Shown: positions 2,987 through 24,835 of the stretch, in pieces | How positions within the stretch are numbered: the stretch's first letter is position 1 | Layout of the letters: every line of letters starts with the position of its first letter | Virus record (IMG/VR): IMGVR_UViG_3300047557_002182 | Coordinates: 1-30,772 of that record | Direction: 5' to 3' (one strand) | Source: a virus | Length of the DNA stretch: 30,772 bases | Translations under genes and position numbers: made by a program | The notes under the pieces: generated by a model | The model's database searches: none | What the model was told of the DNA's origin: nothing | The model's input: the letters and a program-made list of their open reading frames with translations, nothing else

Positions 2987-3018
2987 ACTGATATTGTAAA
3001 TCTAAAGCGCAATGCTTC
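2987..3018 (-). promoter_or_regulatory. bipartite late promoter, copy 1
   Basis: On the minus strand GAAGCA (3018-3013) is followed after 14 bases by TACAATAT (2998-2991). The first base of TACAAT lies 12 bases before the A of the ATG at 2986, so the ATG is at the expected +1. The upstream half overlaps the stop codon of the preceding gene. Spacing is identical to the copies at 8369, 12611, 21757 and 24835. Confidence 0.75.
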
Positions 3019-3553
3019 ATTTATTAAATTCTTTTTGTCTTTGCTTGAAAGTTTTTTCTAACTCTTCTAAATAAGCATCACCCCATTGATTTTTCAAATC
3101 ATCAGTAAATGTTTCTTGAATCATCTGAATTGTTTTTTCTAAGAAAAGCACAGGCGCAATGCCATCACGACCAATCTTACGAGCAATTAAAAAAGACATT
3201 TGGTTAAGTGACATAGGTCTACCTGATTTAGTCAAAAATTGAATTTTACGAGTTTTAATCCAATCGCCAATAGGATCTGAACCATATTTATCTAAAGCAA
3301 ACTGGCCATAAGGCGGTCTTTTAGAGCCGGCTTTACGACCGTAATTAACATAAATCCAGTAATTTTCAGCAAGCAATGATAGTGAGTATTGATTCGAGCC
3401 TTTACCAAGTGATGTTATAGCGTAATCAATCGAATTATAAAGTAAGCCTGAAGCAATTTTATTTGATGAAGATAAAATCTTTTTGATTTCTAAAACCATT
3501 GCTGGTCCGAGTTTATCAAATAAATCGAAAAGTTTTTCTTGTTCAGCTGTCAT
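3017..3553 (-). CDS. HK97 gp10-like tail completion / neck protein
   Basis: The 178-aa protein has the layout of the HK97 gp10-like family, which joins the head to the tail: an N-terminal helix, a central strand region with YWIYVNYGRKAG (about residues 65-76), a KTRKI segment (about 100-104), and LIARKIGRDGI then FLEKTI (about 122-142). It lies in the portal - adaptor - completion gene cluster, next to a tail-terminator-like gene, as expected for such a protein. The stop TGA is the first part of the GAAGCA promoter element of the next gene. The family assignment is from pattern, not a search. Confidence 0.6.
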   Translation of the reverse strand: MTAEQEKLFDLFDKLGPAMVLEIKKILSSSNKIASGLLYNSIDYAITSLGKGSNQYSLSLLAENYWIYVNYGRKAGSKRPPYGQFALDKYGSDPIGDWIKTRKIQFLTKSGRPMSLNQMSFLIARKIGRDGIAPVLFLEKTIQMIQETFTDDLKNQWGDAYLEELEKTFKQRQKEFNK

Positions 3554-3559
3554 AATATT

Positions 3560-4018
3560 TTACGTGATAGGTATATCGCAAGTACCTGTAATCTCTGTTG
3601 TTTGAACCACGATTTCACAAAAGCAGCCAGCAGCTTGTAGATTATATTTTTCCTCGAATGGAGTAATGACTGGATTATTAACAAGTTTGTACTCTTGTGA
3701 ACGATACGAGAAAAGTCTACATACATCAATTAAAATAAGTTCAGTTTGATTCCAGATAGAAAGTACATTGTTTTCATCTTGTCTGACTAAATCATAACAA
3801 TAAAGAACGAATCTACGTTGATCATTGCCAGCATTTCGTCCTAAAACTACTTGAGTATTTATATGTGAAACCCACAGTTGAGGTAATTTGACATCAAGTT
3901 GGTTTTGAGTTTCAATGCCGAATTCTTCACCATAGCCAAAAGATTTGATTTCTAAGTGATCTTCAGCAATCTCTTTGAACTCATTGTAAAATTTATTTAT
4001 TGTCCAGATCTTAGTCAT
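3560..4018 (-). CDS. tail terminator / neck-like protein, 152 aa
   Basis: Small alpha/beta protein with two Cys near the C terminus (GCFCEI). Size, position and mixed strand/helix pattern fit the tail terminator (lambda gpU / SPP1 gp17-like) slot between adaptor and gp10-like genes. Its start overlaps the end of the preceding membrane/coiled-coil gene by 8 bases. It contains no diagnostic motif, so the call is mainly by gene order. Confidence 0.45.
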   Translation of the reverse strand: MTKIWTINKFYNEFKEIAEDHLEIKSFGYGEEFGIETQNQLDVKLPQLWVSHINTQVVLGRNAGNDQRRFVLYCYDLVRQDENNVLSIWNQTELILIDVCRLFSYRSQEYKLVNNPVITPFEEKYNLQAAGCFCEIVVQTTEITGTCDIPIT

Positions 4019-4280
4019 TTTGTCTTAGTTCCTCGTTTTCTTTTTTTAAATATTCCATTTCAACTTTTAGTCTCGCATTTTCTTCCATAACAGTAGTTAA
4101 TTGTTTAGACTGCTCTTCAATTCTGCCTTCTAAAGTAGACACTCTCTGTATTAAGGTTTCTATAAACTGCTGATCAGCTTCTTTTTTATCTTTTTTAGGT
4201 AGTAAAAACGTTGAAAGTATCCACTGACCTAAGCCACCACCGATAAGTGATATAATTGCAATCCAAACTTCTGTCGTCAT
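4011..4280 (-). CDS. membrane-anchored coiled-coil protein (holin-like candidate)
   Basis: This 89-aa protein has one N-terminal hydrophobic segment (about residues 5-27) followed by a KKDKK basic stop-transfer patch and a heptad-rich coiled coil from about residue 37 to the end. This is the topology of small phage membrane proteins such as pinholins or membrane-anchored lysis accessories. No endolysin was recognised nearby, so a lysis role is only a possibility; a structural or membrane-tethering role is equally open. Its ATG overlaps the stop of the HNH gene (ATGA). Confidence 0.6.
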   Translation of the reverse strand: MTTEVWIAIISLIGGGLGQWILSTFLLPKKDKKEADQQFIETLIQRVSTLEGRIEEQSKQLTTVMEENARLKVEMEYLKKENEELRQND

Positions 4281-4789
4281 AATGAATTAATTTTATTTTT
4301 GTATGCTTCATGAGCTGATATCTCATCATCATAATAGCCAATGTGTCTTGATTTACCGTTTATTACAGCACTAGCACGCCATCTATTAATTTTTTTGTTG
4401 TAATGTACACCAGTATATTCTGATGTAGTTTTAGACTTATTTTTATCTTTAGATGTGTTGATTCTATAAGTTGTTATTTGTAAATTTTTCAACCTGTTGT
4501 CGGTTTTTATGTTATTTATATGGTCTATTACCAATCCTGTTCGATTGATATTTATAAAGTTATCTACTACTATTTGATGCACATACATATACTCTCTCCT
4601 TTGCTGTGTATTTAGTATCACGACTTCATAACCAACACCATTTACAACTTTTTTTAACATTCTTCCTTTATAAGTTCTCTTGTGGTTATTATAACCAACA
4701 GTAATTTCTCTATCTAAACTTCTGATATTACCGAGGTTACTTACTTGATATAGTCCTTCAAAACCCTTTATGTCAATCCAATTCTCCAT
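4277..4789 (-). CDS. HNH homing endonuclease with NUMOD4 and AP2-like domains
   Basis: The 170-aa protein opens with a NUMOD4-like domain (about residues 3-48, WIDIKGFEGLYQVSNLGNIRS pattern). An HNH nuclease core follows, with H71, D89-H90 in VIDHINN, and Asn 98, 102 and 111. The C terminus (about 124-168) is AP2-like, with YTGV near its start and RWRA and IGYY further along. This is the standard layout of free-standing phage homing endonucleases. It is wedged between the head-tail adaptor and the membrane/coiled-coil gene, overlapping the latter by 4 bases, and looks like an intruder in the structural operon. It is distantly similar to the HNH gene at 24818-25372. Confidence 0.9.
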   Translation of the reverse strand: MENWIDIKGFEGLYQVSNLGNIRSLDREITVGYNNHKRTYKGRMLKKVVNGVGYEVVILNTQQRREYMYVHQIVVDNFININRTGLVIDHINNIKTDNRLKNLQITTYRINTSKDKNKSKTTSEYTGVHYNKKINRWRASAVINGKSRHIGYYDDEISAHEAYKNKINSL

Positions 4790-4801
4790 ATAAATTATAA
4801 T

Positions 4802-5380: not shown

Positions 5381-5381
5381 A

Positions 5382-6533
5382 TTATTTAATTTTTACTTTT
5401 GTTGTTAGACCGTGTGTCTTTAATATATCTTCTAAAGTCTCTTCAAGCATCAATCTTGCAGGATCAATTACGAATTTATTGAATTGTTCTGCTGAGAAAG
5501 CCAATTCTTCAGCATTTGATCCGCCAAGTTTACCAGGTACAAGAAGACCTACTAAAGCGCCATTTGTAACTTTATGTGCAAAGATTAATTGTTGTAAAAT
5601 GAAATCACCTAAAGCAATTAACTGAGCGTCAAAATCAGGAACTTCTACTTTTTCTACAGTCCATTCTGCTTCACCATTCTTAGCCAAGATTAAAGGGTTT
5701 TTATTATTACGAGCACCTTTGAAGTGAGCCATGAATTCTTGAATAAAAGCATATTTTTCTTCTGCTGATTTGAATTGATAAGGCACCTTAAACATCAAGC
5801 CAGGATTCATACCGTTTTGTATATGTGAAAGATTAAACAGACCAAGTTCTGAATCGAGATTGATATAAGTTAAACCTCCGATATAACTTGGCTCTGTGTA
5901 ATAGTTCAAGTCTGGGTAATAATCTCTTTTATAAATTATTTGATTATAATCTTGTTCATTATCAAAAGAAAACACTGAAATAGGTGTCATATCAGAGTTT
6001 TTCATATTCCAAGAAGCCCAATCACGTGAAAAGTAATATTTTTCAATCTCACCGTTCTTATTCATAGGCGCTGAACGAATCTTTGAAGTATCAATATGCT
6101 TAAAAACTTTAATATATTCAAAATCAGATGACCAAATTACTTCTGTTGAATAAGCACCGAACAATTCATAGTCATAAGCTGTTCTTTTTAACCAATCTCT
6201 TAACGGAAATTTAGAGTTAAAGAATAAATTCTGAACTCTGATTTGAGTTGCGCCACTTAATGTTGCAATCCATTCTTCTAAAGGCAAGTCATTGACTAAA
6301 ACCTCTGAACCAGCTACGAGTTTAGCTTTATTTTCTATAAGTGTTCTGTGTAGCGCTGAAGTTTTAGATAACTCAACTAAGTATTGTGGATATTTGTTAT
6401 CAGCACCATAATTGATGAACTTATAGTTCAATGACTCCTTCATTATAGGAAGTTCAACTCGACTCAAACTCAAGCCGCCAATCAAATCTTGTGGATTTAT
6501 GTTTTCTTTTTTATCGTTATTGAATAAAGCCAT
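5382..6533 (-). CDS. portal protein
   Basis: The 383-aa protein is near the short end of the size range for PBSX/SPP1-type portals. It has an N-terminal region placing a NYGADNKYP motif (about residues 41-50), a wing-like segment with TAYDYELFGAYSTEVIW (about 118-134), and a long C-terminal helical part with FKGARNNKNPLIL, DFILQQLIFAHKV and LGGSNAEELAF, typical of the stem/crown of phage portals. The DNA entry pore is its expected role. It is followed at once by an adaptor and neck genes, which supports the call, but it lies about 16 kb downstream of the terminase, which is unusual. Confidence 0.75.
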   Translation of the reverse strand: MALFNNDKKENINPQDLIGGLSLSRVELPIMKESLNYKFINYGADNKYPQYLVELSKTSALHRTLIENKAKLVAGSEVLVNDLPLEEWIATLSGATQIRVQNLFFNSKFPLRDWLKRTAYDYELFGAYSTEVIWSSDFEYIKVFKHIDTSKIRSAPMNKNGEIEKYYFSRDWASWNMKNSDMTPISVFSFDNEQDYNQIIYKRDYYPDLNYYTEPSYIGGLTYINLDSELGLFNLSHIQNGMNPGLMFKVPYQFKSAEEKYAFIQEFMAHFKGARNNKNPLILAKNGEAEWTVEKVEVPDFDAQLIALGDFILQQLIFAHKVTNGALVGLLVPGKLGGSNAEELAFSAEQFNKFVIDPARLMLEETLEDILKTHGLTTKVKIK

Positions 6534-7426: not shown

Positions 7427-7428
7427 AT

Positions 7429-8001: not shown

Positions 8002-8337
8002 TTAGTCAATCCATAAAGCTACATCATCCCATTCACCAGCATCAGCCCAGTTACCTGTTGCTAAAATCCAATTTGAAGGAGGTGTCGCACCAATGATGGC
8101 TTGAATCCAGTTACCATTTACCAATTGAGTTTTATTATAGTAAAAGGCTATTGCTTGAATCCAAGAACCATTTACTGGCTCAGTGATTCCTAAAGCTTTA
8201 GCAATTGCTTGTATCCAAGAGCCATTCACAGGCTGTGTTGCACCATAATCTTCAGCGATAGCTTGAATCCAAGAACCGTTTTTAGTTTCATAAACTCCTA
8301 AGCTATTGGCCCACTCTTGTAAGAATATAGTAGTCAT
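8002..8337 (-). CDS. tryptophan-repeat protein (NGSWIQAIA repeats), 111 aa
   Basis: Residues 20-82 contain four copies of NGSWIQAIA starting at residues 20, 38, 56 and 74, an exact 18-residue period; the linkers are of the type LGITEPV. A degenerate unit may precede them (W9). The tail, residues 89-111, has four more regularly spaced Trp. No enzyme motif is seen. The even period and hydrophobic Trp/Ile pattern suggest short helical hairpin repeats, perhaps a binding or tail-tip adaptor protein. It is the first gene after a late promoter whose +1 is its ATG. Function unknown. Confidence 0.75.
   Translation of the reverse strand: MTTIFLQEWANSLGVYETKNGSWIQAIAEDYGATQPVNGSWIQAIAKALGITEPVNGSWIQAIAFYYNKTQLVNGNWIQAIIGATPPSNWILATGNWADAGEWDDVALWID
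8092..8280 (-). repeat. 54-base tandem repeat coding for 18-aa Trp units
   Basis: Four copies of a 54-base unit, each starting with the codons for NGSWIQAIA (last copy NGNWIQAII). The core is well conserved and the linker varies, which suggests expansion by duplication followed by divergence. Confidence 0.8.
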
Positions 8338-8369
8338 ATTTATATTGTAATGTTTTTGAGTTTTGCTTC
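8338..8369 (-). promoter_or_regulatory. bipartite late promoter, copy 2
   Basis: Minus strand: GAAGCA (8369-8364), 14-base spacer, TACAATAT (8349-8342), with the ATG at 8337 exactly at the predicted +1. It would drive the Trp-repeat, fibre, portal, adaptor and neck genes down to 3017. Confidence 0.75.
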
Positions 8370-8370: not shown

Positions 8371-9366
8371 TTATGGAATTGATAAAATCCTCATCGGTAA
8401 AAATCTCATATTATTTGAGTTACCACCAACAATGGTCAATCCACCTGCACCTTCAGGCATCACACTCGGAAAACTATTTGTTCCTATTGTAAAAGGATAT
8501 GCGGTACTAAAAGTTGTTCCAGTGTAAAATCCACTGAGTGCATTGAAAAAGTGTGTGTTTACTCCATTTTGTATTGTTGGTGAAGCAAAACCAAGATTCG
8601 GTCTTTGTGTTAAACAACCTTGAGCCCAAGATGTAACTGCACCAATTTGTGAAGCACTACCATATGAACCAATAAAATATGGAGTATTTGCTTGCAATTG
8701 AACTGGTGTAGATAATGGTTTAAACCATAAACCAGCACCAAGCCACTCTGTACTTGTTGGTGGATTTGCTGAAAAGGTTGCTGTGGTAATCAAATTATTC
8801 GGGTGATACATCAAGTTACTCAAATTGTTTGCAACTTGTGCAGATGCAAAACTTATACTTGCTGTTCTTGCATCATAAATTGCAGCAGCTACCGAAGCCG
8901 TGAAATTGTTTCCACCACCACCAAACATACCAATTGCATCTATCGTAATTGTTTGTTCCAATATGAAACCTGTCATAAACAATTGGTTATGAGTCGTGTT
9001 AAAAGTCAATGTTGTGGAAATCATATTATTGGTATTATTATGTGTGATAAAACCAGTGCCAATTGGCGAAGTTGAAGTTCTATAATTGAAGGTTTGTAAG
9101 CCACCGCTTCCAGAACCAGAAGTTCCGCTTGATCCTGTCTGTCCTGATGAACCTGAAGTTCCTGATGAACCTGAAGTTCCACTTGCACCACTTAATCCTG
9201 AAGTTCCTGACGAACCATTTTGTCCACTTGAACCACTTGTTCCACTTGAACCTGAAACTCCTGCAGAAGACGCCATATTTTCTAAATAAAGGAAATTGTC
9301 ATCGAGTTCTGTATAAGTTAAGGCTGAGCCTTTTACATTTCTTAAAGTTAAACTATATGTACTCAT
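8371..9366 (-). CDS. collagen-like tail fibre protein, 331 aa
   Basis: Residues 1-34 form an N-terminal segment (MSTYSLTLRNVKG, then LTYTELDDNFLYLEN) that is common at the base of phage fibres. Residues about 35-85 are Gly-X-Y triplets (GSS/GTS/GQN type). Residues about 90-331 form a beta-rich receptor-binding-like knob with a Gly-rich loop near residue 150. It follows the 849-aa fibre gene by 6 bases and shares its collagen-like stalk type. The knob has no enzymatic motif that I recognise, so a binding role is most likely. Confidence 0.75.
   Translation of the reverse strand: MSTYSLTLRNVKGSALTYTELDDNFLYLENMASSAGVSGSSGTSGSSGQNGSSGTSGLSGASGTSGSSGTSGSSGQTGSSGTSGSGSGGLQTFNYRTSTSPIGTGFITHNNTNNMISTTLTFNTTHNQLFMTGFILEQTITIDAIGMFGGGGNNFTASVAAAIYDARTASISFASAQVANNLSNLMYHPNNLITTATFSANPPTSTEWLGAGLWFKPLSTPVQLQANTPYFIGSYGSASQIGAVTSWAQGCLTQRPNLGFASPTIQNGVNTHFFNALSGFYTGTTFSTAYPFTIGTNSFPSVMPEGAGGLTIVGGNSNNMRFLPMRILSIP
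9110..9262 (-). repeat. collagen-like Gly-X-Y coding repeat
   Basis: A tandem repeat coding for GSSGTSG-type triplets in the 331-aa fibre, of the same base-level type as the other collagen-like tracts in the window. Confidence 0.8.
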
Positions 9367-9372
9367 ATTTTA

Positions 9373-11922
9373 TTATTGTTTTAGTAGTCTTCCAAACTTC
9401 TTTTTTAGTGTAATTGTGTTTGCTGATGTAGCGAATGCTAAACCAAAAACGTTATTATTAGAACTAAATTCTATAAAACCAATAAGTTCTCTATAAAATT
9501 CAGTTGCATTTGGACTTGTCATAGTTTGAGTTTCATCAGCATTACGCATTAACGAAGTTGTTACAGTAGTTGAGCCATCCCACCATTTACCATAGAAGTT
9601 TGAATCAGTGACGGTACCTGAATAAGTCAAACCGACAATCATACTGTCTGTATCACCATAAGACCAAGAGAAATAAAACTCATAAAGACCTGAGGCGAGT
9701 GAGAAAGTCATACCATTGATGGCTTGTCTTGTTCCAGTAGTTATTGTTTGATCAGCAGTATTTTTTTGAATGAATATTGCGGCGGCTGCTGAAGTTCCTG
9801 AAGAGCCACTTGTTCCAGCTGAGCCAGCAACACCTGATGTTCCAGAAGAACCCGCAAGTCCAGAAGTGCCACTTGAACCTGACGTTCCAGACGTTCCAGA
9901 TGATCCTGATTCACCCGATGAGCCTGAAGTTCCTGAAGAACCAGCAATTCCTGAGGTTCCTGATGAGCCTGAAGTTCCAGAAGAACCTGTCAAAATCATT
10001 GATTGTACTTGACCATAGTTGACTGCATCCAATGGATTTGAACCAGTCGCAACGCTTGTAATCTTTTGACTATTTAAGTCCAATCCATAATTTATACTCA
10101 TTGTGCCAGTCGATCTATCAATCTCCCAAACTTGTTTGACGCCACTAAATCCTGTTAACCCATAAACATTAAAACGAGTTTCAGTTGCTCCATTTTGGAT
10201 TGCTGATAAAATTGCGTTTGTTGATTCATCTCTAAAATTGATTGCGTTATCTGCTGGTTTTGCCAAAACACTGAAGCCAGCCGTTGTTCCGAAAAATCTT
10301 TCAACTCCATCGACACTGAAACACAATTCGCCGGGTTGAACCCACATACCACTCTGTGTTGCTGACTCATATTGATAACCAGGTGAACTTACGTTTCCTG
10401 CGGTCGCTCTGATTGGAGTTCTGACGACCATAAAATCTGTTCCAATAACCCATTTTAATTGACCCATTGCACTCGCTCTGATGTCATCACCTGCAAGATT
10501 TGTAAAAAATCCTGTTGAACCACCTAAAGAACCTGTAAAAGATAGTGAAGGTTGTGCAGCTGAGCCTGTAGCCAATATAATTGAATATGGTGAAGCTTGA
10601 TTACCAATCGCAAGTGTCTGTGATAGGTTTTGAGCCGCACCTGACGTTCCTGACGAGCCATCTTGACCAGATGTTCCTGATGAGCCTGAAGTTCCAGAAG
10701 AGCCAAAGCCTGACGTTCCTGATGAACCTGACGTGCCGTCTAAACCTGAAGTTCCTGAAGAACCGTTTATACCAGAGGTTCCTGAAGAACCGTTTATACC
10801 AGAAGTTCCTGACGAGCCATCAATTCCAGAAGTGCCAGACGAGCCTGTTAAACCACTTGAGCCTGAAGTTCCTGATGAGCCTGACGTGCCAGAACTACCT
10901 GAATCACCAGAAGAGCCTGAGGTACCCGATGAGCCATTCATTCCTGAAGTACCTGAGCTACCTGAAGTACCGTTCAAACCTGAAGTTCCCGAGCTACCTG
11001 AGACTCCTGATGTACCAGATGAGCCGCTGATACCTGAAGAGCCTGATGTTCCTGACGAGCCACCTGAAAAAGATACAGTGCCTGTAATCCACAATTTTTG
11101 TGTTGAATCCCATTTCAAAATTGAATCATTTGCAAGGGTATTCTTGTCGTATGCTTTTACGTCGTGAATCTCATCTAACTCGTAACCATTTTGTACTTTG
11201 ATATAAGCAATACCATTTCCTGCATTTGCTCTGACAACAAATCCCACATAAACAAGGTGGTTCGGTGCAGTTTGTTTTACTCGTGTAAAAGTTCCAGCCG
11301 TTGCACCTAAATAAAGTGTATCACCTTCTTGAAATGGTGAGCCCAAGTTTAATCCTGAGATGTATCCGTGGCTTGTAACGAATCCATTTTGTCCTGCTGA
11401 TATGTTTGTAGTCACGACGCCTAAAGTTCTCGCAGAAGTCGCGTCTGACAAGTTTGAAGCACGTTTTACTGATGGTCTATCACCTGAAGCTCCTGAAATA
11501 TAAACAACCTCACCTTTTTGAAGCGTTGTTGCTTCTGTGTTTCTTACATAAACAACTTCTTCTTGACCAACAAGTATATTGAAGCCATCGACATCGAGTT
11601 GTAAAGTTTGATAATCAACATTCCAACCTAAACCACCTTTAGTAAGTGCAGGTGTTGAAGCTGTTGAGAATAAAATCGAGCCACTAAGTCCTAAAATTTG
11701 ACCATTAAATGTTAAATTACTCTCAGCTTGAAAGTTACCGATAGAATCTGAGGTCAAAACTCGATTATCAGCATAATTATTGATGTAATTTCCGAAAACT
11801 TTCTTAGATTCATCAACATTTATACGCCAAGTTTGATCACCTTGAGCTATAGCAAACTCGCCAGTACCATTTACTGCGGTAGCTGAGATAGGATTTAGTT
11901 GTGATATTTTCTTTTTAGCCAT
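9373..11922 (-). CDS. large collagen-like tail fibre protein, 849 aa
   Basis: Order of parts: an N-terminal attachment region MAKKKISQLNPI (1-12) and beta domain to about residue 280, including a GEVVYISG segment; a first Gly-X-Y stalk at about 284-427; a middle beta domain with LDLNSQKITSVATGSNPLDA, a common fibre shaft motif, near 620-640; a second stalk at about 644-713; and a C-terminal knob to residue 849. The N-terminal domain probably fixes the fibre to the tail, and the knob probably contacts the host. The stalks are made of Ser/Thr-rich triplets with almost no Pro. The antisense strand of the stalks is also open, an effect of the repeat. Confidence 0.85.
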   Translation of the reverse strand: MAKKKISQLNPISATAVNGTGEFAIAQGDQTWRINVDESKKVFGNYINNYADNRVLTSDSIGNFQAESNLTFNGQILGLSGSILFSTASTPALTKGGLGWNVDYQTLQLDVDGFNILVGQEEVVYVRNTEATTLQKGEVVYISGASGDRPSVKRASNLSDATSARTLGVVTTNISAGQNGFVTSHGYISGLNLGSPFQEGDTLYLGATAGTFTRVKQTAPNHLVYVGFVVRANAGNGIAYIKVQNGYELDEIHDVKAYDKNTLANDSILKWDSTQKLWITGTVSFSGGSSGTSGSSGISGSSGTSGVSGSSGTSGLNGTSGSSGTSGMNGSSGTSGSSGDSGSSGTSGSSGTSGSSGLTGSSGTSGIDGSSGTSGINGSSGTSGINGSSGTSGLDGTSGSSGTSGFGSSGTSGSSGTSGQDGSSGTSGAAQNLSQTLAIGNQASPYSIILATGSAAQPSLSFTGSLGGSTGFFTNLAGDDIRASAMGQLKWVIGTDFMVVRTPIRATAGNVSSPGYQYESATQSGMWVQPGELCFSVDGVERFFGTTAGFSVLAKPADNAINFRDESTNAILSAIQNGATETRFNVYGLTGFSGVKQVWEIDRSTGTMSINYGLDLNSQKITSVATGSNPLDAVNYGQVQSMILTGSSGTSGSSGTSGIAGSSGTSGSSGESGSSGTSGTSGSSGTSGLAGSSGTSGVAGSAGTSGSSGTSAAAAIFIQKNTADQTITTGTRQAINGMTFSLASGLYEFYFSWSYGDTDSMIVGLTYSGTVTDSNFYGKWWDGSTTVTTSLMRNADETQTMTSPNATEFYRELIGFIEFSSNNNVFGLAFATSANTITLKKKFGRLLKQ
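9782..9990 (-). repeat. second collagen-like coding repeat of the 849-aa fibre
   Basis: Tandem triplets coding GSSGTSG-type units. Codon use alternates at the third position between copies, but the 9-base pattern is retained. Confidence 0.8.
10641..11070 (-). repeat. first and longest collagen-like coding repeat
   Basis: About 430 bases of Gly-X-Y coding repeats, the longest tract in the window. Length variation by slippage or recombination is expected here, and assemblies of such tracts from short reads may be collapsed. Confidence 0.8.
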
Positions 11923-11924: not shown

Positions 11925-12257
11925 TTAATATAATATTTGTATATTATCTTCTGTAATCAAGTATTCACCAGTTTCAGCAATCAAAGCTTGGTCGTTGAAT
12001 TCTGGATCGAAGACTTCATTTTCATAATTTGAGTCATAATCAAATCTTTGAACTTGAGTATATACATCGAAGATTTTGTTAAGAGGTAACTCATCAAAAT
12101 CAAAAGAGGAACCAGCAACATCAAAATCATCAAAGACATAATTTTTATTACCAAGTAAAACATACGAATCGGCGACATAATCTTCAAAAACATAGTCTTC
12201 ATCTACATTAAAAAAAAAAGTTTTGGTACTCACCATTATAAAAGACTGCTTTACCAT
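11925..12257 (-). CDS. acidic protein overlapping the previous gene in another frame
   Basis: This frame codes for a strongly acidic protein, rich in Asp, Tyr, Phe and Val with repeated YVFED / YVFDD / FDFDE units. It overlaps the 3' end of the 123-aa gene by 50 bases; a second possible start is the ATG at 12236. Both frames read FFF through the same run of ten T, so the two could form one 217-aa protein if one base of the run were absent or skipped. It ends 2 bases before the large fibre gene. Function unknown; a small tail or fibre-base protein by position. Confidence 0.55.
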   Translation of the reverse strand: MVKQSFIMVSTKTFFFNVDEDYVFEDYVADSYVLLGNKNYVFDDFDVAGSSFDFDELPLNKIFDVYTQVQRFDYDSNYENEVFDPEFNDQALIAETGEYLITEDNIQILY

Positions 12258-12579
12258 AGTCTAAGATGACATCGTTTGTTGATGCCGTCAGTCCGTAATC
12301 AGTTTTCTGATAGACTTTATAATTGTAAAAGCCGCCATATTCTAAGAGTATTTGAGGTATCGAAGCTGTAAGAGCTAAAGAAGCCGTTACACCTGAGATT
12401 TCATAAATATAGAATTGATTAAAGCGAGTATTTGTACTAAAATCTTGAGCAGTAAAGTAAAACTTCTCTAAACTTTGTACACTTTGTAATTCAAACAAAT
12501 AAATCGGGTTCTGAACCGTTACATTATCGTTGAATCTAAGAACTACTGAATTGGTTAAACCTTGATTTATAGTTATCAT
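12208..12579 (-). CDS. small tail-associated protein, 123 aa
   Basis: The beta-rich protein starts MITINQGLTNSVVL and has a WYSYEI-like region (GGFYNYKVYQ, about residues 83-92), then VILDYGKAVFYNGEY before the end. This resembles small proteins that precede fibre genes in Bacteroidota phages. The stop codon falls inside a run of ten T, so the C terminus is uncertain. It is the first gene of an operon: a terminator lies 47 bases upstream and a bipartite late promoter places +1 on its ATG. Confidence 0.65.
   Translation of the reverse strand: MITINQGLTNSVVLRFNDNVTVQNPIYLFELQSVQSLEKFYFTAQDFSTNTRFNQFYIYEISGVTASLALTASIPQILLEYGGFYNYKVYQKTDYGLTASTNDVILDYGKAVFYNGEYQNFFF
12210..12219 (-). other. T10 homopolymer at a gene junction (possible frameshift site)
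   Basis: Ten T on the minus strand span the end of the 123-aa frame and the overlapping 110-aa frame. A +1 shift (or a nine-base run) would join them into 217 residues. Slippage by polymerase or ribosome, a true mutation and a sequencing error are all possible. Confidence 0.5.
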
Positions 12580-12611
12580 ACTTATATTGTAAATTAAACG
12601 AGTATTGCTTC
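12580..12611 (-). promoter_or_regulatory. bipartite late promoter, copy 3
   Basis: Minus strand: GAAGCA (12611-12606), 14-base spacer, TACAATAT (12591-12584), ATG at 12579 exactly at the predicted +1. It lies immediately after a rho-independent terminator, so it must start a new transcript. Confidence 0.8.
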
Positions 12612-12616: not shown

Positions 12617-12651
12617 AAAAAGAGAAAAGCCAACTCATAAGAGCTGGCTTT
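12617..12651 (-). terminator. rho-independent terminator after the tail-tube-like gene
   Basis: On the minus strand AAAGCCAGCTC (12651-12641) pairs with GAGTTGGCTTT (12636-12626) around a 4-base loop: 11 pairs including one G-U, followed by CTC and a run of five T (12621-12617). The wobble pair makes the stem perfect only in the minus-strand RNA, which gives its direction. Confidence 0.85.
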
Positions 12652-14900: not shown

Positions 14901-15815
14901 ACCTATATTGTAATTTGAAGACATTTTTTCTTTTTCTATTTGTTCTATCTTATTTTCTTCTTCTTCTTCTTCAGCCAAGGTTAAGTCACCACCTTTTTGA
15001 TATTTGACATTTCTATCTCTTAATTGTTCCCATACAGCAGCACCGATAGAAGGTGTTTTACCAACTTCCCAAGAACCGAATTGATTTGAGCCTTCAGTCT
15101 TACAAACACCACCTGTGCCAGTGACTACACTTCTAAATGTGTTTGGCTCAATATTAAAGTAAGTATAAATATCACCTTCTTGAAACTTGATTACCATTTC
15201 TTTAGTTACGTCATCATATAAAATTGAATTAACATTCGAACTTCTTAGATTACGTCTAAAGAATCTTTCTTGTTTTACAAGTCTAGATGAGCGCTTGAAC
15301 TTAAATAAGCCTTCGATTGAAAAGCCTTTATATTTACCAGACTTGATTTGCTGCCATAATTCAGGATTATCTACTTTCATAGACACCATCCAAGTGCCTT
15401 GTGGCACGTCAAAGCCTAAATCTTTTGATTTGTCATTTTCACCAACAATCCAAGACTCAAAAATGAAAGTGTCTTCAGCTTGATTGTTTTTGTGGTCTTT
15501 GTTTACAGAATAATTGTCTTTTAACTTGAAAAACTTTTGAGCGATCTTTTCAATTTGGTCTTTTGAGTACTTAATGTAATAAGGCTCGCCGTCATCATCT
15601 TTTCTGATAATTTCTAAATCAGGAATAAGTGCTGGACCAGTAATGATTTGTTTATCATCTTCAGAAAGTATGATTTGCTTATATTCTTCGGCTACTTGAT
15701 CTGCCATATAAACAAAGTCAGTTAAAATTGCGGGTTTTTTTACAAGGCTGATCTTATCTACACCAGTCATTTCTTCTTCATCGACATAAACATCGAATGA
15801 TATAATCTCGTTCAT
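14205..15815 (-). CDS. prohead protease (XkdF-like) with KTSC domain and scaffold tail
   Basis: The 536-aa protein is a fusion. Residues about 1-170 resemble the XkdF-type prohead serine protease, with VNKDHKN (H108) and KGFSIEG (S166) as the likely catalytic His and Ser. Residues about 190-265 form a KTSC-like domain (SSNVNSILYDD then GDIYTYFNI). An acidic Glu-rich linker (about 280-300) leads to a Lys/Glu-rich coiled-coil C-terminal part (about 306-536). The protease would process the prohead, and the C-terminal part would serve as scaffold. It stands just upstream of the capsid gene. The start ATG lies 2 bases after a TACAATATAAGT element. Confidence 0.8.
   Translation of the reverse strand: MNEIISFDVYVDEEEMTGVDKISLVKKPAILTDFVYMADQVAEEYKQIILSEDDKQIITGPALIPDLEIIRKDDDGEPYYIKYSKDQIEKIAQKFFKLKDNYSVNKDHKNNQAEDTFIFESWIVGENDKSKDLGFDVPQGTWMVSMKVDNPELWQQIKSGKYKGFSIEGLFKFKRSSRLVKQERFFRRNLRSSNVNSILYDDVTKEMVIKFQEGDIYTYFNIEPNTFRSVVTGTGGVCKTEGSNQFGSWEVGKTPSIGAAVWEQLRDRNVKYQKGGDLTLAEEEEEENKIEQIEKEKMSSNYNIGMAEVALVKPGASESQEEFISRCMGDEKMNSEFPEQEQRAAVCYAYWDEKQEKININMVSANLKDGRTLNTDAESMAVGVEVYFMENDQKQAVDSGEYELEDGTIITVEDSKIKEIKDVELGGDYKKEDEEMMRDGKKEEKMEIDPMLMEQFDALKGMLENLNLKIDALMGEEEMGKVKQSVDALEVKFEKVIAEKELKSVETVDSLKKVAQSEVGKKRADYDLIKKYNTKF
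14901..14912 (-). promoter_or_regulatory. late-promoter half-site inside the protease gene
   Basis: TACAATAT (14912-14905) with its first base 12 bases before the internal ATG at 14900, inside codons for NYNIG. The position relative to the ATG is the same as in the complete copies. The GAAGCA half is not present at the expected place. Confidence 0.45.
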
Positions 15816-15817: not shown

Positions 15818-15829
15818 ACTTATATTGTA
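15818..15829 (-). promoter_or_regulatory. late-promoter half-site before the protease gene
   Basis: TACAATATAAGTAT (15829-15816) is followed by the ATG at 15815. Relative to the complete copies the ATG is 2 bases further on, so +1 would fall on the A at 15817 and leave a 2-base leader. The upstream half is GTAAAA, 3 of 6 bases matching GAAGCA. Confidence 0.5.
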
Positions 15830-18287: not shown

Positions 18288-21200
18288 TTAGTAGCTTAAT
18301 CTAAATATATTCCATTGTGTTGATTTATCAGCAGTCGGATTTGTTTCAAGTGAGTTAAAGACTTGAAAACCACTGGCACCGTTACTTGCAATCTCTAAAA
18401 CTACTTGATTGCCAGCACTTGTTGTTACAATTGTGCTTAAATTGATTGTAGTATAAGCATTCAAAGGAAAGTTCACATTACTTTCTGCTGATGCGTAAGT
18501 AACACCACCACCATCAGAAATTCGAACTGACATTGTTTGTTGAATGTCACCAGAGCCTGCAGTTGCTCCTGTGTAAACCTGTGCACTTACAAACCAAGTT
18601 CCTCCAGTTGAGTCAGTCCAAGTATCTAAGTTAAAGTAAGTTGAAGCTGTTGCAAACTTTTGATTTGTTGATAAGAACCACTGATATGTATCGATTGTTG
18701 GTGAAGTACCTGAAGTACCACTTGTTCCGTCAGACCCTGATGAGCCGGATGAACCTGATGAGCCACCAATTACACCTTGAGTTCCACCACCGATATAAGA
18801 AAATGTGCCACCACCATAAACATAAAGTCCTTGTGAAGTACCACCCCAAACCATCATACCGTCAGTTGAGTTTGTAAATGTGTTGATGTCTCTTTGACCT
18901 AAAACAGGATTAAAATCACCAAATGCAAATTGATTTGCTGTAGAATAAGTTTTACCAGAATCAAATGTAACAATGTTTGAAGACTCAATATTATTGTTAT
19001 CACCGAAAACAAAAGCTTTCTGAACTGAATCAGCAAAGATGTTATTATCACCATTTAGGATAATAGTTTCATTGTCACCAGCAAAGGCGTTGTTTGTTCC
19101 TGTAAATAAACCATTTTTAATTGTGCCAATGCCATCGCCAGTATTTGAGCCACCACCTTTAACGCCACCGCCTAAGTCAGGATATAAATCACCTGGCTTG
19201 ATGCCTATATCACCTATACCTACTTGACCGACATATCCACCTGTGTCTATAAAACGGTTTCTTTTAGGCTTTGCACTTCTGAAGTCATAATATGTTAAGA
19301 ACTTCATTGTGGCCATAGTAGTTTGAGTTGGATCGTAGTTGTCTATACTCAATAAAGTGTAATATTGTGAGTTGCCACCTATTTCAAAGTAAAAAAGATC
19401 ATTAAAATCTATTGATTGTAAAATCTTAGTGTTTAATTCTACTTCTAAAGTCAAAATATGTGAATTTTGGTCAGCATAAGTTTCAATCTCGTTTTCATAG
19501 TAGTTATAATAAAGTGAATTTTCTTTAGTTGTGCCACCATTTATTGCAAAAAGTAAGGAATCTGAGGTTCGATCACCATATGAATAATTGTTTGAAGTAG
19601 CAGGAAAATTAGAATAAGTAAAAACTGCGCTTTGTGTTGCAGTAGTGTTAAGTTTGAATTTAATTGTAGTAGGCACAGAAAAAGATGCACTTACAATTCG
19701 AGCTTGTTCTTGTCCACAATACCACCAGTATCTAGTTTTGAAACTAGTTGTTGCTTTAGTCAAATCTTCATTTTGAATAGAAGGTAAAGTAACGTTTAAG
19801 AACTCAGGTCTTGGCGTAAATTGAGTAGGTGCTGCAACCAATGAGATTTTTCTTTCATTATTTAAGAAATCATTATCAAGTTCGATTTGAGCATCACCAT
19901 AAATTCTACCTTTATTGGCATCTTGAAATGTTTTATTTGCATAATCGTTATCTGAAGCATAACTAAATAAATATTTACGAGCTGCTAAGTCGTTTAGATA
20001 AGAAATCTGAACTGAATTAACATCGTAATTTAGATTTGTTACTGTTTTACCTCTTTTATAAAAATCGTCTCTTGGTTCAATTATAAACTTTCGTGAATTA
20101 GTTTTATCAGGTTTAATATAAAGATTAAACATCTTAATAACGTCACCGATTATATCTACTTGTTTTACATTCAAAAAAGTAGGCAATAAATTTGTTGAAA
20201 ACAATTCATTTTCGATTGCAAGCCAAGGTGTGTAATTATCGTTGTGTATATTAATTGATGAGTTGTCAGTCATCAAATAAGAAGCAGTTCCTGAAAAGAA
20301 TGGTATTTGTACGTCGCCTTCAATACCTGTTTTAGGAAGATTCAAGAAAAATTCAATTTCATCTTCGGCTAAGAAGTCAAAAGGAATTGGTACGTGATTC
20401 AAAGTCAAACCATCTGTATCATTATTATAAACTTGTGAAACATTATTAGGATCTATATCAATTAACTCATCAACTTGACCTAAGTTTAGATTTGTAACAA
20501 TTCTTAAACCTCTACGCCAGATATTACAAAGTAATCTTAGATTACCTACGCGATTACGAGCCACATTAGGATCGTTATAAGTTCCCCAACCCCATAAAAA
20601 ACCAAAGCCACAAGAAAGTGTAAATCTATCTCTGAATGGTATTTTGAATCTACCAGTTCCAGAGTTATAACTATTGCCATATTGATCTACAATTTGTGTT
20701 GTAAAAGGTATTTTAAGAATTTCTCTTTCATAAATGCGATAGTTAGTGCTTGCTTGATACTCAACAAAAGCATCACCTGTTGGCTTTTCAAAACTCGGCA
20801 TTATAAGTAAATCTTTGAATAAATCAGAGTTAAAGAAGTTTGAATCATACTCATAACCCCACTTAGCAAATATTTTATCAATTACATATTTGACTCTCAA
20901 TTGAGGATAAAGTTTAGTAGTAGGAATGCCTGTTGTATTAATCTCACCTGATGTAATTTGATTTGTATTGGTTTTAATCATCGTGTAAACATAATCACGT
21001 TGATTATTCCAAGATGCTTCAATTTCAGATTTAACTTTATTATGAACAGTATCGTCAAAATTTAAGTTATCAGCTCTATCTGAATTACCGAATACAAATT
21101 TGTCGCCGATATCGTCAAATAAGTTTTTAGTTTCACCATAAAAAACACATTTGTATAATTTATTAGGCAGATCAATCTCTTGAACTTGTAAATAACCTGA

Positions 21201-21725
21201 GGCTATCAAAATACCACCATCAGTAATAGTACAATCTGATTTCTTTTTAGGATTAAAGCCATTTGTAACGTTGATATTAAATATTTGTGTAAATATTTTA
21301 TCATTGTTTTTTGTAAAAGGTATGTCTACTGTTTTAGTAAAGGTTGAACTACGTTTAAGTTCTTTTAAATCAAAGATCCTAAAGTTTAACAAAATTTCAA
21401 TTACGCCGTCAAGCTGAAAAGCACCTTCATCATAATAAGGCTCTTCAATTTGAGTAATTGCTGATAAGTCAGCCGTGCCATTTATAGGTTCAACAACAAT
21501 GTTCCAACCAAAAATTGAAAAATAAACGTCATTTATCTTTGCATTGTAGGTGCCTGCGGTTGCTTGTGTGATTCTTATAACAGAACCTATCACAAATTGT
21601 ACATTGCTAAAAAACCAAAGATTACCAGAAGAAGGTACGTTTAATTGATAAGTTGTATAAGTTCCTGGCACATCGATATAACCTTGTGCAGGTGATGACC
21701 AGTTTGGCAGTAATTTTAGTTCCAT
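18288..21725 (-). CDS. large tail / baseplate-spike protein with beta-roll and collagen-like segments
   Basis: The 1145-aa protein has a long N-terminal beta-rich part (to about residue 850) with no catalytic motif that I recognise. A region of repeated GDN and NNI units follows (about 870-970), resembling the YadA-type head beta-roll that forms trimers. A short Gly-X-Y tract (about 985-1005) and a C-terminal beta domain of about 140 residues, probably a receptor-binding tip, end the protein. It follows the large terminase and precedes the tape measure, an odd place for a tail-tip gene. A bipartite late promoter puts +1 on its ATG. Confidence 0.65.
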   Translation of the reverse strand: MELKLLPNWSSPAQGYIDVPGTYTTYQLNVPSSGNLWFFSNVQFVIGSVIRITQATAGTYNAKINDVYFSIFGWNIVVEPINGTADLSAITQIEEPYYDEGAFQLDGVIEILLNFRIFDLKELKRSSTFTKTVDIPFTKNNDKIFTQIFNINVTNGFNPKKKSDCTITDGGILIASGYLQVQEIDLPNKLYKCVFYGETKNLFDDIGDKFVFGNSDRADNLNFDDTVHNKVKSEIEASWNNQRDYVYTMIKTNTNQITSGEINTTGIPTTKLYPQLRVKYVIDKIFAKWGYEYDSNFFNSDLFKDLLIMPSFEKPTGDAFVEYQASTNYRIYEREILKIPFTTQIVDQYGNSYNSGTGRFKIPFRDRFTLSCGFGFLWGWGTYNDPNVARNRVGNLRLLCNIWRRGLRIVTNLNLGQVDELIDIDPNNVSQVYNNDTDGLTLNHVPIPFDFLAEDEIEFFLNLPKTGIEGDVQIPFFSGTASYLMTDNSSINIHNDNYTPWLAIENELFSTNLLPTFLNVKQVDIIGDVIKMFNLYIKPDKTNSRKFIIEPRDDFYKRGKTVTNLNYDVNSVQISYLNDLAARKYLFSYASDNDYANKTFQDANKGRIYGDAQIELDNDFLNNERKISLVAAPTQFTPRPEFLNVTLPSIQNEDLTKATTSFKTRYWWYCGQEQARIVSASFSVPTTIKFKLNTTATQSAVFTYSNFPATSNNYSYGDRTSDSLLFAINGGTTKENSLYYNYYENEIETYADQNSHILTLEVELNTKILQSIDFNDLFYFEIGGNSQYYTLLSIDNYDPTQTTMATMKFLTYYDFRSAKPKRNRFIDTGGYVGQVGIGDIGIKPGDLYPDLGGGVKGGGSNTGDGIGTIKNGLFTGTNNAFAGDNETIILNGDNNIFADSVQKAFVFGDNNNIESSNIVTFDSGKTYSTANQFAFGDFNPVLGQRDINTFTNSTDGMMVWGGTSQGLYVYGGGTFSYIGGGTQGVIGGSSGSSGSSGSDGTSGTSGTSPTIDTYQWFLSTNQKFATASTYFNLDTWTDSTGGTWFVSAQVYTGATAGSGDIQQTMSVRISDGGGVTYASAESNVNFPLNAYTTINLSTIVTTSAGNQVVLEIASNGASGFQVFNSLETNPTADKSTQWNIFRLSY
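18708..18775 (-). repeat. short collagen-like coding tract
   Basis: Bases coding for the GSSGSSGSSG / GTSGTSG triplets of the 1145-aa protein, the shortest of the five collagen-like tracts in the window. Confidence 0.7.
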
Positions 21726-21757
21726 ATTTATATTGTAATTGATTTGACTGCTGCTTT
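21726..21757 (-). promoter_or_regulatory. bipartite late promoter, copy 4
   Basis: Minus strand: AAAGCA (21757-21752, one base different from GAAGCA), 14-base spacer, TACAATAT (21737-21730), ATG at 21725 exactly at the predicted +1. It would drive the 1145-aa tail protein and tape measure. Confidence 0.7.
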
Positions 21758-21758
21758 A

Positions 21759-22934
21759 CTAAAAAAGTAAAGACCAGTCTTTTAATGAAGGCATTCTTTT
21801 ATTGTTCCAGATACAATATCTGAATGAATCACATAAGTCATCACCTACTTTTACAGGCTCATAAACTATTTGTTCACCTTTAGTTTTCCAAGAATAACGC
21901 TTCATTTCGTCAATTAAGTTCAAAGACTCGTTGTTTACAAAGATTTTAAGTGATTTTATATAATCAATGCCTTCTTTTACAGACTTATCTGCTGATTTTG
22001 CGTTGAAACCTGCTCGTTTTAAGTCCTCGACCATAGCAGGCGCAGCTGCATCGACCCAGATATATTTGTCTTGATCAATTTTTAAATCTTTCATTAAAGA
22101 AATTAAATCAGCTGAGGTCAAGTTCGATTGATAAATTAACTCTTCGATCCAAACCGTATCATCTTTGAAGTAACATTTAGTCAAAGCCATTGCGTGACCA
22201 TAGCCTACATCAAGACCATACGAAAAATCATCATACAAAGCAACATCATTTAGATATAACTCTCTTGAGTCATAAAACTTATGATGAGTATAAATTGTAG
22301 TAATCGCATAGCCAGGTAAGCCTAAAGCATAAACTCTGTAAAAGTTTTCATCTAAGTCTTTATAAGATTCGATTTGTTGTACTTGTTGTTGAGTTAAGAA
22401 AGGATTTTTGAGATAAGTTGAATGAATATAATCACAATCATCTCTATGTTGATACTTCATTGACCAGTGCCATACATCTGATGGGTTTTCATCCATGAAA
22501 ACTCGCTCTGAAGTTCTTAAAAACAACTGCTGTGCTGATTCATAATCAACTTCATTTGCCTCATTCAGATAAAGAATGTCCCTTTTTGCACCACGTATCT
22601 TCTGTGAATCAGATAATGAAAAAAATTCAACCCAATTACCAAAAACATCTACTTTATGTTCAGTTTTGTTGTGTTTTTTCTGATCATAAATGCCATATTC
22701 TTTGATCATATCGATAAATTCTCTGTAAACAGTCCTTCGTAAAGATGGAAATGACTTTCTTACTATCGAGATATACTTTGCTTGATTTTGATTCTGCAAA
22801 CAGTAGTATATGATCCATTGCATCATAGAATATGTTTTTGAAGATCTACTCGAACCTACTGAAAGCACAAACCTTTTGTCAGTTTTAAGTAAATCATTAA
22901 AAATTTCTGTAGTTTTAATCTTCAGTTCGTTCAT
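21759..22934 (-). CDS. terL: terminase large subunit
   Basis: The 391-aa protein packages DNA into proheads. The ATPase part shows a Walker A motif GSSRSSKT (residues 27-34, K33) and Walker B ILYLNEAN (120-127, E125). Asn replaces the usual acidic residue just before E125, a common variant in Terminase_3-type proteins. The nuclease part shows GLDVGYGH (about 240-247, D242) and IWVDAAAP (D295), with a third acidic site near DDLCDSF (about 364-370). Length is near the family minimum. It is preceded by a GIY-YIG endonuclease gene and the small terminase, and followed by a late promoter. Confidence 0.95.
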   Translation of the reverse strand: MNELKIKTTEIFNDLLKTDKRFVLSVGSSRSSKTYSMMQWIIYYCLQNQNQAKYISIVRKSFPSLRRTVYREFIDMIKEYGIYDQKKHNKTEHKVDVFGNWVEFFSLSDSQKIRGAKRDILYLNEANEVDYESAQQLFLRTSERVFMDENPSDVWHWSMKYQHRDDCDYIHSTYLKNPFLTQQQVQQIESYKDLDENFYRVYALGLPGYAITTIYTHHKFYDSRELYLNDVALYDDFSYGLDVGYGHAMALTKCYFKDDTVWIEELIYQSNLTSADLISLMKDLKIDQDKYIWVDAAAPAMVEDLKRAGFNAKSADKSVKEGIDYIKSLKIFVNNESLNLIDEMKRYSWKTKGEQIVYEPVKVGDDLCDSFRYCIWNNKRMPSLKDWSLLF

Positions 22935-22947
22935 TTGCGTCTTTGGT

Positions 22948-23247
22948 TCAAAAGTATTTTATCGCTCTTGGTGGTGCTTGCCACAATTCTTTTTCATTAA
23001 ACCAATCCTCTAAAATCAAATATGCTTCCATTCTCACAGCATCCGTCTTGGTTACAAATTCATATAATTTATTTAACTTAATCTCCTCAAAAGCTTTTCC
23101 CTCTAAGTACAATTTTTTATACAAGGTTTTCTTTTCTCCACTTTTTAATCCTCGGTTATGTTCCTTTTCTCTTCTACTCAAATCATTCGTCATTCCAACA
23201 TACCTTCTTACACCATCCACTAAAATCTCATAAATAAAATAGTTCAT
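22948..23247 (-). CDS. GIY-YIG homing endonuclease
   Basis: This is a compact 99-aa single-domain GIY-YIG nuclease. The FIY (residues 4-6) and YVG (16-18) motifs stand for GIY and YIG; R25/R26 and H30 follow in the catalytic helix, and E74 in RMEAYLI is the metal-binding glutamate. It has no extra DNA-binding domain. It lies between the small and large terminase genes, 13 bases before the latter, so it has moved into the packaging operon. It is the third endonuclease of selfish type in the window. Confidence 0.85.
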   Translation of the reverse strand: MNYFIYEILVDGVRRYVGMTNDLSRREKEHNRGLKSGEKKTLYKKLYLEGKAFEEIKLNKLYEFVTKTDAVRMEAYLILEDWFNEKELWQAPPRAIKYF

Positions 23248-23261
23248 AAATCCTTTTTAAT

Positions 23262-23663: not shown

Positions 23664-23681
23664 AATTAAGTTTGGTTAATT

Positions 23682-23831
23682 TTATAGCTTCTTCTTTTTT
23701 TGTCTTTCAATCTCTTGTTTCATTTTCTGATTGCGTCTACCAACCATAATCACGTGCGTAAAAACTAATTGATGATTTATTTTTAAGTATTCGTTTACTT
23801 TGATTAAATCATAATCGTTTACGTCCATCAT
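23682..23831 (-). CDS. small basic hypothetical protein, 49 aa
   Basis: A short frame starts with two ATG codons; the first overlaps the stop of the upstream gene (TAATG), a coupling arrangement. It fills the gap before the small terminase gene. The protein is basic at the C terminus (QRKKKK type end) with a short hydrophobic middle. It lies inside the packaging operon, so it may be a minor packaging or DNA-binding factor, but no motif is seen. Confidence 0.55.
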   Translation of the reverse strand: MMDVNDYDLIKVNEYLKINHQLVFTHVIMVGRRNQKMKQEIERQKKKKL

Positions 23832-24478
23832 TATTTGAAGCCAAGCTTGTTCAGTAGATTCTTTTTTAGATTCTTTATTTTTTGAACCTTTCGTTGAACT
23901 TTGTCTATCGTTGCTTTCTGTTTGAGCAGGTTCTCCGAAAAGAGCTCGGTAGCTCTTCCTAACACGAGATGCGTAAACAAAAAAAAACTTGCTGACCAGA
24001 AGTATTCTGTTGCAGGTGCGTGTAAAAGATAGTCAGATACTTTATCGTGCTCTTGAGTGTTATATTCTTGAGCTGGAATGTAGAAAATTGCAATCAACTT
24101 ATGAGCTTCTCTTAAATTTGAGTATTTCTCTGTATCAATCCACTGCTCTAAACTCATCATCTTAAAATCTTGAAAAGTATAAACTTTACCGTCGATAGTA
24201 AGTTGTTTACATTCTCGAAGTACTGGTCTATCATCTAAAAACTCAATTTGCTTGTAATAAGACTGTAGTTGAGGTAGAGTCAAAAGACCTATCTCTTCTA
24301 AAGTGTATTGAGGATTTAAAATATGAACTTGTTCGAGTCTGTATTTAACAACCTCGATTGCGTCTTTAAGATCATACTTTTCACCAGCTTCGATTAACTT
24401 AACATATTGATCTAAGGTAATATCTTCCCACGATTGAGGTGATTTAAGCTTGATTTGTGTCTGAGTCGGTTGAGTCAT
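23831..24478 (-). CDS. hypothetical protein, 215 aa (packaging operon)
   Basis: Helical protein with a WEDITLDQYVKLIEAGEKYD segment near the start (residues 17-36) and a basic C-terminal helix ending in KKNLLNKLGFK. Its start overlaps the end of the previous gene by 35 bases. Its style is like that of small assembly chaperones, but it is not next to the tape measure, so I do not assign this role. It probably has an assembly role with the terminase genes. Confidence 0.65.
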   Translation of the reverse strand: MTQPTQTQIKLKSPQSWEDITLDQYVKLIEAGEKYDLKDAIEVVKYRLEQVHILNPQYTLEEIGLLTLPQLQSYYKQIEFLDDRPVLRECKQLTIDGKVYTFQDFKMMSLEQWIDTEKYSNLREAHKLIAIFYIPAQEYNTQEHDKVSDYLLHAPATEYFWSASFFLFTHLVLGRATELFSENLLKQKATIDKVQRKVQKIKNLKKNLLNKLGFK

Positions 24479-24773
24479 CTTCTTTTTTCTTTTTTTCTTT
24501 TTCTTTAGACCAGTTAATTAGTGGTTTGCCTACGTTGTCGCCATAATTAACAAAGTCTTTAAGCTTACGAAAAATCGTGTCTTGGCAAGCGCCGCAGTTG
24601 TATCTTCCTGCGTAGGTATTGTCTCCTGATGATTGTTGATATAAGTCATACATAAATTTTGTTATTTCTGCACTAAGACCATATCTCGGATCTAAACCTA
24701 AATTTAAGAATTTTTCTACTTTTTCTTTGTTTGTTTTAAGAGCATTAATCTCTTCAATAATGTGATGTGCCAT
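24444..24773 (-). CDS. hypothetical protein, 109 aa, first gene of terminase operon
   Basis: N-terminal helices, then a NCGACQD segment with two Cys in a CxxC (about residues 59-62), and a charged C-terminal tail with repeated Lys and Glu/Asp. No catalytic motif is clear. It is the first gene behind the bipartite promoter at 24804-24835, with a 30-base leader. The following gene overlaps it by 35 bases, so both are coupled. Confidence 0.65.
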   Translation of the reverse strand: MAHHIIEEINALKTNKEKVEKFLNLGLDPRYGLSAEITKFMYDLYQQSSGDNTYAGRYNCGACQDTIFRKLKDFVNYGDNVGKPLINWSKEKEKKKKEDDSTDSDTNQA

Positions 24774-24803
24774 ATTATCTTTTTAATTTTTAATAAATGT
24801 TGT

Positions 24804-24835
24804 ATAGATATTGTATTTCATACTGACTGTGCTTC
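24804..24835 (-). promoter_or_regulatory. bipartite late promoter, copy 5 (with a leader)
   Basis: Minus strand: GAAGCA (24835-24830), 14-base spacer, TACAATAT (24815-24808), predicted +1 at 24803. There is no ATG at +1; the gene starts 30 bases on at 24773. The GAAGCA half lies in the 3' end of the HNH gene. This copy shows the element does not depend on a start codon. Confidence 0.75.

Follow-up and report, generated by a model that had tools for sequence, protein, structure and literature searches.

We analysed a 30.8-kb virus record (IMG/VR record IMGVR_UViG_3300047557_002182, positions 1 to 30,772; this whole stretch is called the window) and found that a bipartite motif, GAAGCA (AAAGCA once)-N14-TACAATAT, stands just 5′ of late genes at five sites, all on the minus (late) strand. 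The motif is kept at orthologous genes in two related phages, and the window encodes a homologue of the phage T4 protein gp55 at 27079-27423. With both observations in hand, the best reading is the one proposed by the initial annotation, a late promoter read by a phage-coded sigma factor; this sigma is very likely of the gp55 type. We consider it probable that the sites are conserved, phage-specific late promoters served by a T4-like split late sigma, consisting of the gp55-like protein and a sigma-4-like protein (26122-26679), on host RNA polymerase. The further-reaching proposal of a two-protein phage sigma with real -35-type recognition, together with a largely leaderless late regulon fused to its start codons, is more doubtful and is put forward tentatively.

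Five late sites share a fixed geometry

The five sites lie where they had been annotated (Table 1), and their described geometry was confirmed. The distance between boxes is 20 nt, start to start, at every site, and the ATG stands 12 nt past the first T of TACAAT at four of them (2998 to 2986, 8349 to 8337, 12591 to 12579 and 21737 to 21725). At the fifth (24815), 42 nt separate the first -10 base from the ATG at 24773. All five sites extend as TACAATAT, and four extend as TACAATATnnRTATG.

The pattern RAAGCA-N14-TACAAT was seen five times, against 0.013 expected per strand in second-order Markov sequence; it did not occur on the plus strand, and a backwards-read control pattern gave no matches. 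Likewise, TACAATATnnnTATG was found five times (one copy intragenic) against 0.01 expected, with none on the other strand. When all hexamer pairs with gaps of 8-22 were considered, shuffled genomes usually gave three copies of some pair, and four in 1 of 30; after this look-elsewhere correction the bare GAAGCA/TACAAT pair (four exact copies) is only borderline. Pairs that outnumber it, among those listed, stem from collagen-like SSGTSG repeats. What makes the motif decisive is the extended -10, the fixed distance to the ATG, the placement before genes and the independent relatives.

The initial annotation had also noted that the motif does not match the usual Bacteroidota promoter, and this held: TAnnTTTG occurs 41 times against 46.7 expected, and the housekeeping promoter TTTG-N17-23-TAnnTTTG once in the window against 2.94 expected, never at the late sites. 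Sites in the window that resemble the sigma-70 consensus TTGACA-N16-18-TATAAT are no commoner than in shuffles, and GAAGCA/TACAAT pairs are absent among those listed.

Two further perfect -10 copies lie in the window, a sixth at 15829 and a seventh inside the protease/head gene at 14912. This intragenic copy, TACAATATAGGTATG (14905-14912, minus strand), has an in-frame ATG at codon 306, from which a separate C-terminal scaffold-like protein could be made; it is not kept in the relatives G3 or G6 described below.

The motif persists at orthologous genes of two relatives

A capsid-based search provided two related species, the second represented by contigs G3, G4 and G5 (capsid 80% identical) and the third by G6 (32 kb, 80%). 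No further species emerged from alignment-based capsid and portal scans, and single-protein searches of IMG/VR with the gp55-like protein, the sigma-4-like protein or the terminase gave no matches. Scanning IMG/VR for the full motif recovered L007, a fragment that is 100% identical and stems from the same phage. The other full-motif matches were rejected as apparent chance: L006 lies within coding sequence of a large phage that is unrelated, and in L041-L047 the ATG opens frames of ≤23 codons.

In G3, TACAATAT with the ATG 12 nt on was found at the orthologues of 18288, 14205 and 12208; at the orthologue of 14205, as at window position 15829, RAARCA is absent. The G6 -10 reads [TG]CCAATAT at 5979, 23579 and 24162, where the ATG follows at 12-13 nt. 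Upstream of 12208 and its orthologues, all three phages carry RAARCA-N14-TMCAATAT with the ATG at 12 nt, in the form of AAAACA-N14-TACAATAT in G3 and AAAACA-N14-TCCAATAT in G6. The G6 orthologue of the tail gene 18288 has GAAGCA-N14-TCCAAT with a leader, the first -10 base lying 28 nt from the ATG. Spacers and flanks differ between the phages while the boxes persist, and at two sites (window 24815 and G6 28761) the boxes stay together far from the ATG, with the -10 28-42 nt off, which is the behaviour expected of a signal in DNA.

RAARCA occurs at an offset of exactly -20 in 8 of 13 promoters, and at only one other position across the whole alignment. Among the G3 and G6 sites three of seven have it, compared with a base rate of ~0.002 per position; our own arithmetic puts the chance of this at ~4e-7, which is an order of magnitude, the G6 -10 sites having been partly chosen by eye. 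The start codons of the late genes appear credible, because protein alignments with the orthologues begin at residue 1 for 12208 and 1604 in G3 and G6, and for 18288 in G3.

At its 3′ end, an HNH-endonuclease-like gene (24818-25372, minus strand) overlaps with the 24835 promoter. In G3 and G6 the HNH-like gene is missing at this location and the orthologous gene lacks a promoter of this type, and the promoter may have arrived together with the insertion of the HNH gene.

A gp55-like protein and a candidate sigma-4-like partner

The 27079-27423 product matched the PHROG 'late sigma transcription factor' family with E 4.9e-9, and T4 gp55 was the sole PDB sequence match of its profile (7d7c_F, E 5.1e-5). 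Its AlphaFold model (pLDDT 81.6) has the same chain, T4 gp55 in a promoter complex, as top fold match (TMq 0.72, rmsd 1.7 Å). The fold is that of sigma region 2, and the protein is too short to hold region 4. Homology to T4 gp55 thus marks it as a putative gp55-type late sigma. Using tblastn, the best relatives were found in jumbo phages, mostly of Bacteroidota (PAU gp112, Lak, Chryseobacterium MA9V and Tenacibaculum pT24), and hhalign aligned it with PAU gp112 at 98.5% (E 2.7e-15). A gp55 homologue in a phage of ~30 kb is unusual, because the phage genomes among the matches listed are all at least 84 kb (40 of 40). Identity of the gp55-like protein among the relatives is 28%. The G6 homologue is preceded by GCCAATATAGATATG (G6 contig 24162-24176), suggesting autoregulation.

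The 26122-26679 product is kept at 41-47% in both relatives and adjoins the same genes in all three phages. Its C-terminal helix-turn-helix resembles the -35-binding domain of SigD (TMt 0.80 over 60 aa). Profile matches were to Sigma70_r4_2 (E 0.068, 13.3 bits; curated cut-off 25.7), phrog_36 (E 0.0015), the sigma family phrog_1740 (E 0.023) and sigma-28 region 4 (E 0.21). The assignment of this C-terminus as sigma-region-4-like is suggestive only. Comparison by hhalign of this protein with the gp55-like protein, or with gp33 of Nonlabens phage P12024S, gave nothing firm. In the cluster that also contains the gp55-like gene, the sigma-4-like gene has on either side a gene for a small zinc-ribbon-like protein (weak Pfam matches; 25643-26125 and 26717-27082, minus strand).

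Proposed mechanism and alternatives

Three things were shown: the motif itself, the homology to gp55 and the persistence of the motif before orthologous genes. Late transcription, its start sites and the assignment of proteins to boxes are inferred. The gp55-type sigma would redirect host RNA polymerase to the five late promoters and would itself read the -10 element TACAATAT. RAARCA, fixed 14 nt from the -10, would most likely be contacted by the 26122-26679 protein as the other half of the split sigma; this is the least certain step. In such an arrangement the helix-turn-helix protein would occupy the place of T4 gp33 and add recognition of RAARCA. Since a standard -10 at a distance of 12 nt from the ATG has its +1 at the A of that codon, transcription from four promoters is predicted to start there, which would make most late messenger RNAs (mRNAs) leaderless. 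The terminator at 12626-12651 would end the preceding transcript before the 12611 promoter. Promoters with a -10 only would fit a T4-like core, with the upstream box raising strength. The promoter proposal of the initial annotation is supported and at the same time refined, in that some late promoters appear to manage with the -10 only and the -10 directly adjoins the start codon.

Several observations weigh against this model. Perfect -10 copies without RAARCA occur at 15829, G3 4571 and G3 10150, and therefore the upstream box is not obligatory. The gp55 gene was not found in G3, whose contig is incomplete. The 14-nt spacer is ~3 nt shorter than in ordinary sigma-70 promoters, and the A-3/A-6 near the ATG also match the Flavobacterium translation preference. 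For the 26122-26679 protein, sequence support for a sigma-4-like identity is weak (E 0.02-0.2), and the structure model (mean pLDDT 52) is of poor quality beyond its C-terminal helix-turn-helix.

The -10-only promoters in the window and in G3 would be expected if the gp55-like protein, with or without a T4-style clamp, were the late sigma by itself, RAARCA serving an unrelated activator or the C-terminal domain of the RNA polymerase alpha subunit and 26122-26679 doing something else. T4 provides a precedent, as it reads no -35 and its gp33 lacks sequence recognition (PMC2988020), and so does the jumbo phage PAU, which has a gp55 homologue and a -10-like TTATACATAT without an upstream box. However, the distance from RAARCA to the -10 is exactly 14 nt in three phages, as one holoenzyme predicts, and next to the gp55 homologue a sigma-4-like protein has been conserved. 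We consider this arrangement unlikely. Even less support falls to the idea that 26122-26679 is a complete sigma resembling those of the extracytoplasmic function (ECF) type and reads both boxes, leaving the gp55-like protein for other promoters. Among the relatives its conservation exceeds that of the gp55-like protein, and P12024S pairs an ECF-like sigma with an analogous AAAACA-N16-CGTTAATA 12 nt before the ATG. In contrast, no sigma region 2 was detected in it, and the -10 TACAATAT/TCCAATAT is T4-late-like and not of the CGT type expected for ECF sigmas, which makes this reading improbable.

Bacteroidota possess many ECF sigmas, so that a host alternative sigma might be considered as the reader of the late promoters in place of a phage sigma. 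Variation of the -10 among the related phages (TACAAT versus TCCAAT) and the presence of the phage's own late sigma render this more improbable still. Least probable of all is the reading that the sequence ahead of the ATG acts as an RNA signal, in translation initiation (Kozak-like) or otherwise, and not as a promoter. It would account for the fixed 12-nt spacing to the ATG, and A at -3/-6 does promote initiation in Flavobacterium johnsoniae (PMC6847099). However, the upstream GAAGCA also lies at a fixed distance, and the motif is missing from the majority of genes in these operons. A signal acting in translation alone would also sit poorly with the terminator preceding the 12611 site and with the two leadered sites, where both boxes are retained and 28-42 nt separate the -10 from the ATG. 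A late promoter read by a phage gp55-type sigma stays our preferred reading.

Genome layout

A long frame leaves the right end of the window, and the record is probably incomplete. Relatives and A-rich leaders without a Shine-Dalgarno sequence point to Bacteroidota as hosts of this small tailed phage. The division of the late block into operons is roughly as first annotated, with one change: the 1145-aa gene had been annotated as tail/tape measure, and is a large tail protein, the tape measure being the 808-aa gene downstream of it.

Table 1. Promoters, regulators and late genes of the window
Feature	Position	Strand	Details
Late promoter GAAGCA-N14-TACAAT(AT)	2993-3018	-	predicted to drive 1604-2986
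Late promoter GAAGCA-N14-TACAAT(AT)	8344-8369	-	predicted to drive 8002-8337 and portal/neck genes to 3017
Late promoter GAAGCA-N14-TACAAT(AT)	12586-12611	-	predicted to drive 12208-12579 and fibre-like cluster to 8371
Late promoter AAAGCA-N14-TACAAT(AT)	21732-21757	-	predicted to drive 18288-21725, then tape measure and head genes
Late promoter GAAGCA-N14-TACAAT(AT), leadered (42 nt)	24810-24835	-	predicted to drive 24444-24773 to terminase 21759-22934
-10-only copy TACAATAT, no GAAGCA	15822-15829	-	before protease/head gene 14205-15815; ATG 14 nt past first base
Intrinsic terminator	12626-12651	-	11-bp stem, T-rich tail; immediately upstream of 12611 promoter
Putative gp55-like late sigma factor, sigma region 2 only, 114 aa, TTG start	27079-27423	-	phrog_234 E 4.9e-9; weak Sigma70_r2
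Sigma-region-4-like helix-turn-helix protein (suggestive), 185 aa, TTG start	26122-26679	-	two genes downstream of gp55-like gene; candidate RAARCA reader
Last late (tail) gene, 460 aa	1604-2986	-	
Portal protein	5382-6533	-	phrog_33693 E 4.4e-18
Capsid-like gene	13269		assigned by position and relatives
Protease/head gene	14205-15815	-	
Tape measure protein, 808 aa	15845-18271	-	phrog_1506 E 3.5e-13
Large tail protein, 1145 aa	18288-21725	-	
Terminase large subunit	21759-22934	-	phrog_2 E 1.6e-34

The fibre-like proteins (8371-11922, minus strand) contain long collagen-like SSGTSG repeats, and both ends of the G6 contig fall within such a repeat. Homing-endonuclease-like genes, HNH-like and GIY-YIG-like as called by eye from the translation, lie among the structural genes (4277-4789 and 22948-23247, minus strand).

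Significance

T4 late transcription is the textbook split sigma without -35 recognition. Small Bacteroidota phages in which a gp55 homologue coexists with a fixed upstream box would offer a way to study the gain or loss of -35 specificity by a split sigma. In the literature searched, which comprised papers other than subscription papers, no description of promoters of this kind was found for small phages of Bacteroidota. The prediction of leaderless late mRNAs is of interest since most transcripts of Bacteroidota hosts carry leaders: leaders exceed 10 nt in 87% of predicted transcripts of Flavobacterium johnsoniae (PMC6847099), and ~3.7% of 5′ untranslated regions are <10 nt in Bacteroides thetaiotaomicron (PMC7366714). 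If the prediction is true, the phage has a largely leaderless late regulon in a phylum where leaderless mRNAs are rare. The motif is in addition a compact guide to late operons in phages of this kind, and might provide Bacteroidota with an orthogonal promoter.

Comparison with known systems

In leaderless mRNAs of Deinococcus-Thermus the -10 likewise abuts the start codon, but there the genes are cellular, the motif is TANNNT, and neither a phage sigma nor a fixed upstream box is involved (PMC12340547). Nonlabens phage P12024S/L, a distant relative by its capsid and protease genes, also combines a bipartite motif, with a -10 8-mer 12 nt before the ATG, and a phage-coded sigma (annotated as Sigma-70 region 2) before the terminase. 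Its motif differs, being AAAACA-N16-CGTTAATA, and its sigma (20595-21074) is ECF-like and not gp55-like. In P12024S this motif, the 8-mer exactly 12 nt before the ATG, was found six times against 0.03 expected; TACAATAT was rejected as its motif. The looser form AAAACA-N15/16-CGTTA[AC]T occurs at 167, 3019, 5400, 21269, 23949, 25189 and 26790, mostly exactly 12 nt before the ATG of a gene, and the upstream boxes of the two phages resemble each other (AAACA/AAGCA). Late promoters abutting the start codon appear to occur twice in phages with their own sigma, with different sigmas. SPO1 gp33/gp34 and Bacillus SigO-RsoA are alike in that sigma functions are split over two proteins; both are two-protein sigmas with two-box promoters.

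Bacteroidota jumbo phages such as PAU share a homologous sigma (gp112 in PAU) and an AT-rich -10-like box before structural genes. In Sphingomonas phage PAU, TTATACATAT stands before structural genes and occurs 28 times on the plus strand against 1.8 expected, with none on the other strand, and is likely a gp55-type late promoter; TACAATAT was rejected as the PAU late motif (22 against 17.9 expected). PAU differs in the box itself, in its distance of 13-81 nt from the next ATG and in having no upstream box.

In T4, gp55 is the late promoter specificity factor and gp33 sits on the beta flap in the place of region 4 and reads no DNA sequence; together they are termed a split sigma, and T4 late promoters lack a -35 (PMC2988020; PMC7892883). 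The phage described here is like the T4 late system (PDB 7d7c) in its gp55-homologous, region-2-only sigma, in the 8-bp -10-like element before late genes and possibly in having another protein, encoded separately, where sigma region 4 would be. T4 is a large phage whose late promoter consists of a single -10-like TATAAATA with no upstream element, whereas here a phage of ~30-32 kb has TACAATAT/TCCAATAT plus RAARCA at a fixed offset, the ATG on the predicted +1, and a helix-turn-helix candidate partner where T4 has gp33. These promoters would work like T4 late promoters, yet are not T4 late promoters; the late promoter found here is a variant of the T4 late kind and not a new category.

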